A stretch of DNA of 64,000 nt from Clostridium sp. HBUAS56010 (GTDB lineage Bacteria > Bacillota > Clostridia > Lachnospirales > Lachnospiraceae), in NCBI RefSeq assembly GCF_007115105.1, contig NZ_SULJ01000009.1, forward strand, positions 1 through 64,000. The letters run 5' to 3'. Below are positions 13,560 to 17,272 of the stretch, piece after piece; the stretch's first letter is position 1; every line of letters begins with the position of its first letter. The position numbers and the translations under genes were made by a program. Under the pieces are notes generated by a model, which saw nothing but the letters and a program-made list of their open reading frames with translations, did no database searches and was not told where the DNA came from.

Positions 13560-16130
13560 CTATACTAATTTGCGCCCGCAGCACTGTTTATACTTTTTAC
13601 CAGAACCGCAAGGACATGGATCATTGGGATATACCTTTGCCTCAATCTTTTTGACTGGTGCTTTTGGTCCGCTTTCATCCTTGTTGGTTCCTGTCTCCTT
13701 GGCAGCAGCTTCCCGCTCTACCTTCTGCTCCACTCTGATGTGGAATAAAACTCTTACCGTTTCTTCCCGGATGGCTGCTGTCATCTCTTCAAACATCTGA
13801 TATCCGCTCATCTTATATTCTACCAGCGGATCTCTCTGACCATAAGCCTGAAGACCGATACCTTGACGAAGCTGATCCATATCATCAATATGAGACATCC
13901 ATTTATTATCAATCACTTTTAATAAAATTACACGCTCAATCTCACGAATCTGCTCTGCCTCAGGGAATTCTGCTTCTTTGGACTCATAAAGCTTAATGGC
14001 TTCTTCTTTTAATCTATGCTTTAATTCATTCTTCTTAATCTTCTTATCTTCCGGAAGAGTAACCGGTTCTAAAGGAATAACAGGAAGCAGCAAAGTATTT
14101 AACTCATTTAAATCCCATTCTTCCGGTGCCTGATCCTCACTGACGCAAAGATCTACTACATTCTCCACAATATCTGTGACCATCTTTAAAATTACGTCAC
14201 GCATATTGTCTCCGTCTAATACTTTTCTTCTCTCTGCGTAAATAACCTCTCTCTGGTCATTCATGACTTCATCATATTTCAGAAGATTTTCACGGATTCC
14301 GTAGTTATTGGTCTCGATCTTCATCTGTGCCTTTTCAATGGCATTAGACAGCATCTTATGCTCGATCTCTTCGCCTTCCGGCACACCTAAGGCATTGAAC
14401 ATGGTTACAAGACGCTCAGAACCAAACAGACGCATCAAATCATCTTCCAGGGAAATATAAAATCTGGATTCACCCGGATCTCCCTGACGGCCGGCACGAC
14501 CACGGAGCTGGTTATCAATACGGCGGGATTCATGACGTTCTGTACCGATAATCTTCAAACCTCCGGCTGCTTTTGATTCATCATCAAGCTTAATATCCGT
14601 ACCACGCCCAGCCATGTTGGTTGCGATGGTGACTGCTTTATGAATACCAGCATCGGCTACAATCTCTGCCTCAAGCTCATGGTACTTGGCATTAAGGACT
14701 TTATGAGGAATGCCGCGGCGTTTTAACATTCCACTTAACATCTCTGAAGTTTCAATGGTAATCGTACCAACCAGAACTGGCTGCCCCTTCTTGTGAGCTG
14801 CTTCCACCTCATTGCAGACCGCTTCAAACTTCTCTTTCTTAGTCTTATATACAGCGTCTTCCCGGTCAATACGGGCAATTACACGGTTAGTCGGAATAGA
14901 AATGGCATCCATGCCATAAGTATTACGGAATTCTTTCTCTTCTGTAAGAGCAGTACCGGTCATACCTGATTTCTTACCATACTTATTAAAGAAGTTCTGG
15001 AATGTAATGGTTGCCAGAGTCTTGCTTTCTCTGCGGACATTTACATGTTCCTTTGCTTCAATTGCCTGATGGAGTCCATCCGAATAACGTCTTCCCGGCA
15101 TAATACGTCCGGTAAATTCATCAACAATCAGCACTTCATCATCTTTTACCACATAATCCTTGTCCCTAAACATGAGATTATTGGCTCTGAGGGCAAGAAT
15201 AATATTATGCTGGATCTCTAAGTTCTCCGGGTCAGACAGGTTCTCAATATGGAAGAACTGCTCAACCTTTTCCACACCCTGCTCTGTTAAGTTTACGACT
15301 TTATCCTTTTCATCTACAATAAAATCACCGGTCTCAACAATCTCTTCTCCCATGATGGCTGCCATCTTGGAAAATTCTCCGGAAGCTTCTCCGCGCTCCA
15401 GCTGGCGTGCAAGTATATCACAGACCTCATAAAGCTTGGTTGACTTTCCACTCTGTCCAGAAATAATAAGAGGTGTTCTGGCTTCATCAATCAGCACAGA
15501 GTCAACCTCATCAATAATACAGAAATCTAAATTTCTCAAAACCATCTGTTCCTTATAGATGGCCATATTATCTCTTAAATAATCAAATCCCAGCTCGTTA
15601 TTGGTTACATAGGTAATATCACAGTTATAAGCGTCCCGTCTCTCATCTGAATTCATGTTGTTTAACACGACACCGACTGTAAGACCCAAGAACTCATGAA
15701 CTCTGCCCATCCACTCCGCATCACGCTTTGCCAAATAGTCATTGACCGTTACAATCTGGACACCATTCCCAGCCAGAGCATTCAAATAGGCAGGACAGGT
15801 GGAAACAAGCGTTTTACCTTCACCAGTCTTCATCTCCGCAATACGTCCCTGATGAAGAACGACACCTCCGATGAGCTGTACACGGAAATGTTCCATATTA
15901 AGGACTCTTCGTGCTGCTTCTCTGACCGTAGCAAAAGCTTCAGGTAAAACATCATCAAGAGTTTCGCCTGCTGCCAGCCGTTCCTTGAAAAGCTTTGTAT
16001 TATTCCTCAGTTCTTCGTCCGTAAGAGCAACCATTGCCGGACGCAGAGCCTCTATCTTATCCACAATGGGATTAATCAGTTTTAATTCTCTTTCACTATG
16101 AGTTCCAAATATTTTCTGAACGAGGTTCAT
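13560..16130 (-). CDS. secA: Preprotein translocase ATPase SecA
   Basis: The motor that drives unfolded preproteins through SecYEG. Walker [11 protein letters not shown] at about residues 101-110; DEAD-type [17 protein letters not shown] at about 207-223; second nucleotide-binding fold with [13 protein letters not shown] and [17 protein letters not shown]. The C-terminus carries the zinc-binding SEC-C tail [17 protein letters not shown]. 856 aa is typical. AGGAG lies 8 bases before the ATG. It is separated from hpf by a 614-base region that holds a DnaA-box cluster. Confidence 0.97.
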
Positions 16131-16209: not shown

Positions 16210-16354
16210 CGAATTCATAAAAAATTAACATTCTGGTAATAATCTGACCAGATCCTTCCAAAAGCACCCTTTCTTTCCACAGCAAAGAACAGCAAAACAG
16301 ATTATTTTTATGGTAACCTGACATATTGCACAAAAAACATGTTCGATTTTTTGT

Positions 16355-16481
16355 TTTTCCACATTATCCACATCCGCCTGTACATCTTTCCCCCATTTTT
16401 ATCCCCAGATTTTCCTTCCAAAAATCGGGAAAAAACAGTTATACACCGAGTTATCCACATTATCCACATTATTTCTCCACA
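16355..16481 (+). promoter_or_regulatory. Cluster of DnaA-box 9-mers
   Basis: Three exact TTATCCACA boxes (16364-16372, 16451-16459, 16460-16468) and four single-mismatch copies (TTTTCCACA 16355-16363, TTATCCCCA 16399-16407, TTATACACC 16439-16447, TTCTCCACA 16473-16481) lie in one orientation within 127 bases. Two pairs abut with no gap. An AT-rich stretch (about 16556-16700) follows. No dnaA or dnaN is near, and genes on the right mostly point toward the cluster, so oriC is unlikely; a DnaA-titrating or DnaA-regulated site is more probable. Confidence 0.75.
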
Positions 16482-16682
16482 TATTCCCATAATCCCTTAT
16501 CGAATGCAACAACGTGGTTTTTTTGTATAGATGTCATAAAATTTCCTTTTTCGACGGAAAATTCCATATTTCCCTTGACTTTTTTTTATGTGTATCTATA
16601 GTTTTTCAATAAATTGATAAAATATAAGAAGAAACATTTCACATAAAATTCACATAAATTATCTTAATATTTTACTAACTTA

Positions 16683-16711
16683 TTGAATTATTCTCATAAA
16701 TATGCTATACT
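16683..16711 (+). promoter_or_regulatory. Promoter of hpf, extended -10
   Basis: TTGAAT (16683-16688), 17 bases, TATACT (16706-16711) preceded by TG one base upstream (extended -10). It lies about 30 bases before the hpf ribosome site and about 200 bases right of the DnaA-box cluster. Confidence 0.75.
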
Positions 16712-16744
16712 ATAACCATCTCAAGAAAAAGGAGCTGATGACTT

Positions 16745-17272
16745 ATGCGTTTTACAATTACGGGAAAGAATATTGAGGTTACATCAGGATTACGGGAAGC
16801 GGTTGAAGACAAGCTCGGAAAGTTAGATCGTTTCTTCGCTCCTGCTACGGAAGCTACCGTAAGACTCAGCGTGCAGAAAGAATTGCAGAAAATTGAAGTC
16901 ACAATCCCAGTGAAAGGACATATTATCCGGGCCGAAGAGTCCAGCACAGACATGTATGTTTCCATTGATCTTGTGGAGGAGATTCTGGAACGGCAGTTAA
17001 AAAAATATAAAAATAAGCTCATTGATAAGAAACAGAATGCTCCATCCTTCTCTAAAGCATTTATAGAAGAAGATTTTGTAAGTGATGATCACTTTGATAT
17101 TGTTAAGACAAAGAAATTTGCAGTGAAACCCATGGATTCCGAAGAAGCATGTGTGCAGATGGAACTCCTTGGACATAACTTTTATGTATTCTTAAATGCA
17201 GATACAGAAGAAGTCAACGTGGTTTATAAAAGAAAAGGCGGTTCTTACGGACTGATCGAGCCGGAATTCTAA
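16745..17272 (+). CDS. hpf: Long-form ribosome hibernation promoting factor
   Basis: Dimerises 70S ribosomes into inactive 100S particles in slow growth. The N-terminal S30AE domain (residues 1 to about 100: MRFTITGKNIEVTSGLREAVEDKL) is followed by a linker and the C-terminal dimerisation domain (from about 118: KTKKFAVKPMDSEEACVQMELLGH). 175 aa marks the long form of Gram-positives. ATG at 16745 has AAGGAG upstream; an earlier ATG at 16738 is out of frame. The hpf-secA-prfB neighbourhood is classic, but here hpf is divergent from secA. Confidence 0.96.
   Translation: MRFTITGKNIEVTSGLREAVEDKLGKLDRFFAPATEATVRLSVQKELQKIEVTIPVKGHIIRAEESSTDMYVSIDLVEEILERQLKKYKNKLIDKKQNAPSFSKAFIEEDFVSDDHFDIVKTKKFAVKPMDSEEACVQMELLGHNFYVFLNADTEEVNVVYKRKGGSYGLIEPEF

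Follow-up and report, generated by a model that had tools for sequence, protein, structure and literature searches.

A phased, same-strand array of putative DnaA boxes at the hpf locus of Lachnospiraceae and other Bacillota, a candidate non-origin DnaA-box cluster

Introduction

DnaA-box clusters outside oriC (DBCs) are a kind of element already known from Bacillus subtilis. Among them is the gcp(tsaD)-ydiF region, in which ydiF is presumably an ABC-F gene, and a further study of this region by Okumura et al. in 2012 reportedly exists. Annotated as "downstream of gcp; downstream of ydiF", it is one of eight high-affinity DnaA regions of B. subtilis, holds 10 sites, has a Kd of 0.15 uM for ATP-DnaA and gave 16-fold more DNA with ATP-DnaA than with ADP-DnaA (PMC4447404). 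Several of the non-origin DnaA regions of B. subtilis control a neighbouring gene (PMC4447404). Deletion of the six B. subtilis DBCs leads to early initiation, and one DBC re-placed at various sites partly relieves this effect, yet the same 2017 review states that, early-initiation phenotype notwithstanding, no B. subtilis DBC with a significant role in initiation has been identified (PMC5295017). A 2026 review describes it as unknown whether regulators in B. subtilis keep the ATP- and ADP-bound forms of DnaA in balance (PMC13220808).

In Escherichia coli, datA, DARS1 and DARS2 are conserved non-origin loci. Boxes I and II of the DARS cores point in opposite directions (PMC8682772), and datA and, like it, DARS2 work with IHF (PMC13220808, PMC5295017, PMC8682772); B. 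subtilis is described as lacking IHF, datA and DARS (PMC13220808). E. coli DnaA favours pairs of boxes 2-3 bp apart and needs both boxes (PMC11317965).

Here we describe an array of DnaA boxes that sits in the hpf locus of a Clostridium genome. Like the gcp(tsaD)-ydiF region it is a many-box array away from the origin, as are the B. subtilis arrays at sda-yqeG, ywlC, ywcI-vpr, trmE-jag and yydA-yyzF, from all of which it differs in locus. The main text of the B. subtilis DnaA-binding study, as distinct from its supplementary table of 269 regions, has no occurrence of hpf, yvyD or secA (PMC4447404), and term searches of PMC11019786 and PMC8203912 found none of hpf, yvyD or hibernation. Our literature searches, with most subscription papers outside their reach, retrieved no paper in which DnaA boxes are connected with hpf, with ribosome hibernation or with Lachnospiraceae. 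Within this literature, the hpf address, the fixed and phased architecture and the two-address pattern across a sample of the phylum are new.

A dense array of DnaA boxes between secA and hpf

In the window (the whole stretch of DNA that was analysed, 64 kb), secA (856 aa; 13560..16130, minus strand; identified with Pfam) and the gene for the ribosome hibernation-promoting factor, hpf (175 aa; 16745..17272, plus strand; TIGR00741, PF02482 and PF16321 in NCBIfam and Pfam), are transcribed divergently, away from an intergenic region that contains seven putative DnaA boxes at 16355..16481, all matching the consensus on the plus strand. A box scan recovered the three perfect and four near matches in 127 bases that the initial annotation had reported, as well as its two pairs of boxes with zero spacing (16355/16364 and 16451/16460). 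The array begins with a one-mismatch box, TTTTCCACA (16355..16363), that directly abuts a perfect box, TTATCCACA (16364..16372). These are followed by Box A, a one-mismatch TTATCCCCA (16399..16407), by the two-mismatch Box B, TTATACACC (16439..16447), and, after a 3-bp gap, by the perfect Box C (16451..16459), to which the equally perfect Box D (16460..16468) is directly joined. A trailing one-mismatch box, TTCTCCACA (16473..16481), is mostly confined to the genus. A possible weak box, TATTGCACA (16324..16332), may lie 31 bp upstream of position 16355; the adjoining GCACAAAAAACAT is conserved in the genus. An additional perfect box at 16057-16065 lies within secA and is not part of the cluster.

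DnaA boxes (TTATNCACA) are clustered here far above chance. Six boxes with at most one mismatch fall on one strand within 127 bp, the maximum for the window, whereas in 300 dinucleotide shuffles of the window the maximum per 127 bp was 1 in 207 and 2 in 93, and none of 2000 shuffled versions of the intergenic region had more than two one-mismatch boxes per 127 bp on one strand. Across the whole window, 33 one-mismatch sites compare with 19.7 expected. This excess is only modest, so that the signal is the clustering.

The stretch from the array to hpf (16482..16744) is an AT-rich flank, as had been noted (74.5% AT compared with 57.8% for the window). On the plus strand, it contains two candidate hpf promoters, TTGACT-16-TATAGT (16575..16602) and TTGAAT-17-TATACT (16683..16711), and two candidate secA promoters, TTAACA-17-TATATT (16204-16176) and TTGAAT-17-TACAAT (16209-16181), are found on the minus strand upstream of secA. 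All four are consensus matches only, and nine promoter-like consensus sites were found compared with 5.0 +- 2.3 in shuffles.

An open reading frame of 91 aa (16326-16601) spans the array, which could in principle be a coding feature, or a leader RNA, instead of a site bound by protein. The spacings between boxes, however, differ by 1 bp among members of the genus and by ~10 bp between families, which no reading frame would survive, and no Rfam family reaches its gathering score. Both the coding and the RNA leader interpretation were rejected on these grounds, and we consider it exceedingly improbable that either is correct.

The array lies far from the replication origin

Clustered boxes adjoining AT-rich DNA are also what might be expected of a second or former replication origin. 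GC skew, however, is negative in each 4-kb step of the 64-kb window, including both sides of the array, and so does not switch there. The dnaA gene of this genome (TIGR00362) is located with dnaN on a different contig (C5), is flanked by boxes on both sides, and coincides with a skew switch, from -0.25 immediately before dnaA to positive values from dnaA onward. In six of the seven single-contig genomes of the genus (G024 was left out), all Lacrimispora, the array is 0.61-0.94 Mb from dnaA, or 13.5-15.7% of the genome. The origin was therefore rejected as an identity for the array on the basis of GC skew and of dnaA being on another contig, and an origin of either sort is in our view very improbable here. 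The initial annotation had noted that neither dnaA nor dnaN is near, had argued against an origin and had proposed GC skew as a check; its view that this is not an origin is supported. The array is, like the B. subtilis clusters, outside oriC. It falls in the origin-proximal half of its replichore in 13 of 13 measured genomes (the six Lacrimispora among them), although this is not independent evidence, because hpf itself is origin-proximal.

Conservation and geometry of the core

A lack of conservation of the boxes between secA and hpf in close relatives had been named as grounds for refutation; this was examined, and the proposal withstood it. To judge from its named close relatives, the genus is Lacrimispora. 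Of 25 genus genomes sampled, 24 have hpf, the exception being G010 (67% complete), and the array is present at all 24 of these loci. Over 23 aligned loci the fraction of the majority base is 0.951 in the boxes, 0.842 between them and 0.880 at all intergenic positions outside the boxes. The perfect box at 16364..16372 and Box D are invariant, and in the box at 16355..16363 the three leading bases vary while the six final bases do not. Such conservation of the site supports a function, though it does not strictly define a DBC. A second hpf-like gene in G004 (L033, G004:C23:107924-108433), 41% identical, has no array upstream.

Beyond the genus, the arrays share a core of three same-strand boxes (B, C and D) that start at positions 0, 12 and 21, that is with a 3-bp gap and then none. 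The 3-bp gap between Boxes B and C is within the spacing preferred by E. coli DnaA. The core was called when at least 21 of 24 positions matched (at most three mismatches) within 600 bp upstream of hpf. By this definition it is found at 24/24 genus loci, at 57/64 other named loci of the family, in 5/7 genomes of the family in the order sample, in 18/55 from other families of the order and in 11/31 from other orders. It occurs on the opposite strand at 0 of these 181 loci, and in 0 of 3620 shuffled sequences. The named-family group was obtained from 80 loci by dropping 13 of the same genus and three with less than 300 bp upstream, and two of its seven misses (L074, L081) have sequence that ends within 350 bp upstream of hpf. 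For the order sample, upstream DNA came from 63 of the 72 hpf-bearing genomes besides G000 and G022 (one was dropped, with less than 300 bp), and for the class sample from 31 of 87 genomes of other orders with hpf, mostly those with the best hpf matches.

Box A played no part in the selection of arrays. Of 121 non-redundant arrays, 63 have a distal Box A at 40-42 bp upstream and 31 have one at 30-32 bp, so that 93 arrays have it at either preferred distance (one is counted in both), against a background rate of 0.0055 per position. Another distance is found in six arrays, and 22 have no Box A at 25-69 bp. The two preferred distances (about 31 and about 41 bp) are approximately one helical turn apart. 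The array of the window, with 40 bp from Box A to Box B (16399 to 16439), falls into the 40-42 bp class.

In the family, the array mostly stays in place with secA either divergent or downstream of hpf, and the gene on its other side may be secA, a short-chain dehydrogenase (by eye), a PilZ protein or others. Exceptions are L066 and L091, where a gene intervenes between array and hpf while the array remains near secA, and Brotaphodocola (L052), with no box in the region. As a partner gene secA was set aside, since in most cases the array remains with hpf where secA lies elsewhere; L066 and L091 are the exceptions. The suggested link to secA expression is weak, since the array is still beside hpf in most family loci that lack a divergent secA.

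Two chromosomal addresses in the phylum

The exact pattern TTATNCACNNNNTTATNCACATTATCCACA matched just 8 of 98 class genomes and was replaced by a pattern with at most three mismatches. Searched genome-wide and regardless of neighbouring genes, this core occurs in 42/98 class, 43/78 order and 77/149 phylum genomes, mostly with one or two matches per genome, and a reversed-pattern control gave 0 matches in every class, order and phylum genome. The genomes that have no core match at this threshold (56/98 class, 35/78 order and 72/149 phylum) are counted against the interpretation of the array as a DBC.

For the order and class samples, the 94 listed matches represent 90 distinct places, four being shared. 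In 39 of these listed matches (37 of 90 places) the array is co-oriented with hpf and at most 600 bp upstream of it. With the array of G075 (L298, C20), which is downstream of hpf, between hpf and secA, 38 places are directly at hpf. A further 21 places are in the neighbourhood of the hpf locus without adjoining hpf. In 19 of them the array is next to an amino-acid ABC transporter, a treble-clef protein or flagellar genes, and in the other two (G076 and G052) the transporter is 9.9 kb, and hpf 12.4 kb, downstream of the array. Four places are beside sigH only and five at murC-dnaD or dnaD. The remaining 22, four of which lack a retrieved locus, have no assigned address and are likewise counted against the DBC interpretation. 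Where the transporter adjoins the array, nine genomes (G102, G177, G133, G128, G042, G060, G061, G025, G077) have hpf 2.6-16 kb downstream. The distance is 2.9 kb, with hpf in the opposite orientation, in G115, about 75 kb in G043 and about 1 Mb in G185; in the others hpf is on a different contig or was not found. In G055 the array adjoins other genes while the 1500 bp upstream of hpf contain no box. Array-like triple boxes by genes outside the named addresses were also seen in the class sample (L303-L305, L310-L314, L316-L318, L336 and L337).

The phylum sample (149 genomes, 144 of them outside the class) gave 112 places, three of which are shared with the other samples. We read 67 of the other 109, namely 27 automatically selected loci and 40 places from genomes with at least two matches. 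Two addresses, the comFC/fliS-(ABC transporter)-hpf locus and the region of tsaD, account for 31 places each, or 62 of the 67, and five are elsewhere. The 27 automatically selected loci, none of which has a match to dnaA or dnaN, comprise 10 recognised by hpf, four by the ABC transporter, 11 by tsaD or an ABC-F gene and two only by a gene for 5-formyltetrahydrofolate cyclo-ligase, which adjoins tsaD in other genomes. The 40 further places divide into 17 at the hpf locus, 18 at tsaD and five elsewhere. Of the 30 multi-match genomes, 25 were examined (all but G217, G230, G302, G319 and G332; the second place of G297 and the third places of G243 and G275 were left out), and 20 of these have one array at each address. 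Of these 20, hpf itself is in view in 15, the hpf address being recognised by comFC, fliS, the treble-clef protein or the transporter alone in G222, G221, G228, G287 and G291; the tsaD-side assignment in G206 comes from the cyclo-ligase gene alone. The others have tsaD and another place (G196, G296), the hpf locus and another place (G199, G315) or, in G297, a single place read, which is elsewhere.

In Clostridia the array keeps one orientation towards hpf, often at 600 bp or less, which would fit a transcriptional role too; in at least one genome, G199 (L401), it is reversed relative to comFC and the transporter. At tsaD the arrays face the 3' end of the gene, and in L338 and L341 the array is flanked by the 3' ends of tsaD and of an ABC-F gene. 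According to the NCBIfam entry gcp_kae1, gcp is the older name of tsaD, and the tsaD address corresponds to the gcp-ydiF DnaA region of B. subtilis, as compared by gene address. The core pattern of the hpf array lands, in other classes, at ABC-F/tsaD or at the tsaD 3' end. The initial annotation had expected a role new for the family, but any such role would not be confined to it: the same architecture recurs in other classes of Bacillota, and does so also at a locus known in B. subtilis.

A probable role in retaining DnaA

Based on its boxes, geometry and conservation, we consider it reasonably probable that the array acts as a DBC outside the origin, holding DnaA and tuning initiation. DnaA binding at the array, a preference for the ATP form and an effect on initiation are all predictions from sequence. 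Boxes B and C, on the same strand with a 3-bp gap, would bind DnaA cooperatively, and Box D, which abuts this pair, would extend the complex. Box A, which faces the same side of the DNA some three or four helical turns further upstream, would stabilise it. Such a complex would retain a share of cellular DnaA, probably with preference for ATP-DnaA. When the locus is duplicated after initiation, free DnaA would be lowered and re-initiation delayed. The location beside hpf would be an old chromosomal address, not a strict promoter element, and an effect on transcription of hpf or secA is possible on top.

A different reading is that DnaA bound there controls hpf, positively or negatively, and perhaps the divergent secA as well, which would couple ribosome hibernation to the state of replication. 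In B. subtilis DnaA is known to act as a transcription factor (PMC4447404), and in 39 of the 94 listed matches the array is close to hpf and co-oriented with it while the gene on the other side changes. Fixed placement relative to the hpf promoter or start would be expected of a DnaA-regulated promoter; the array is close to hpf and co-oriented in many genomes, but Box D may be anywhere from about 150 to 480 bp from the start of hpf. Genes intervene in L066 and L091, 21 of 90 places do not adjoin hpf, and the hpf of G055 has no box upstream. The array of G075, being downstream of hpf, counts against a strict promoter role, the core at tsaD faces the 3' ends of genes, and the main text of the B. 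subtilis study names none of yvyD, hpf and secA (PMC4447404). A simple hpf promoter element was accordingly demoted to a rival, given the arrays with other genes between and those at tsaD. Regulation of hpf as the main function seems unlikely to us, although it keeps some weight because orientation and closeness to hpf are often kept in Clostridia. The position at gene 3' ends at tsaD, together with the deletion and re-placement of DBCs in B. subtilis, favours a location-tolerant sink or regulator of DnaA over a promoter element. Of the two roles first proposed, titration of DnaA is the better supported; a link to hpf expression is possible and not required.

The retention of DnaA might also be accompanied by a change of its nucleotide, by hydrolysis or exchange, at an element like datA or DARS. 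The fixed, helically phased geometry, the one or two matches in most genomes and the origin-proximal position in all 13 measured genomes would be in keeping with this, and the array resembles the E. coli loci as a conserved non-origin locus at which DnaA binding is predicted. Its seven boxes, however, are all on one strand, in contrast to the opposing boxes I and II of DARS, and DARS identity was rejected because of this orientation. Furthermore, datA requires IHF, which B. subtilis is said not to have (PMC13220808), and no such partner is known for the array. We regard a nucleotide-changing element as quite improbable.

More broadly, it is conceivable, and we propose it tentatively as something short of an even chance, that helically phased DnaA arrays at two addresses, tsaD and hpf, form an ancient system of Bacillota, with a part in initiation control like that of datA and DARS in E. 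coli. The hpf address, undescribed within our searches, would be the one kept in Lachnospiraceae. The array extends a single B. subtilis locus to a pattern across the phylum sample, and a phased array at the same one or two addresses in many families is a concrete and easily deleted candidate for a limit on initiation in Gram-positive bacteria.

Other DnaA-box clusters in the genome

The genome as a whole has 95 perfect boxes, compared with 21 matches of the reversed pattern. Clusters of four perfect boxes each are found at dnaA, in and beside the murC-dnaD gap (contig C3), and in the secA-hpf region, where one of the four falls inside secA. The tandem TTATCCACATTATCCACA occurs in this genome only at the murC-dnaD cluster and at the secA-hpf array. 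It is present in 24 of 25 genus genomes, and each of 29 loci viewed in context was, by eye, one of these two sites.

The murC-dnaD cluster (C3:60767-61267; L006 8768-9268) is a second non-origin cluster of DnaA boxes. It occupies, and extends beside, the gap that separates murC from a dnaD-like gene, which is followed by a dnaI-like gene. It shares the tandem with the array but lacks the 12/9 core in this genome (best match 18/24 in the 19-kb locus). Six genus genomes (G005, G006, G009, G011, G017 and G020) have two tandem pairs there, 164-165 bp apart, and the tandem pair after murC overlaps a terminator-like hairpin (by eye). A 12/9 core is found at murC-dnaD in one other family of the order (L299-L301). 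In G044, two contigs (C34 and C40; L299 and L300) have identical murC-array-dnaD-dnaI order and relative positions, reflecting either duplication or assembly redundancy.

Perfect boxes on contig C1 are polarised by strand, with 7 of 7 on the minus strand at 64-351 kb and 20 of 22 on the plus strand at 421-953 kb, which suggests that the replication terminus lies between these two zones.
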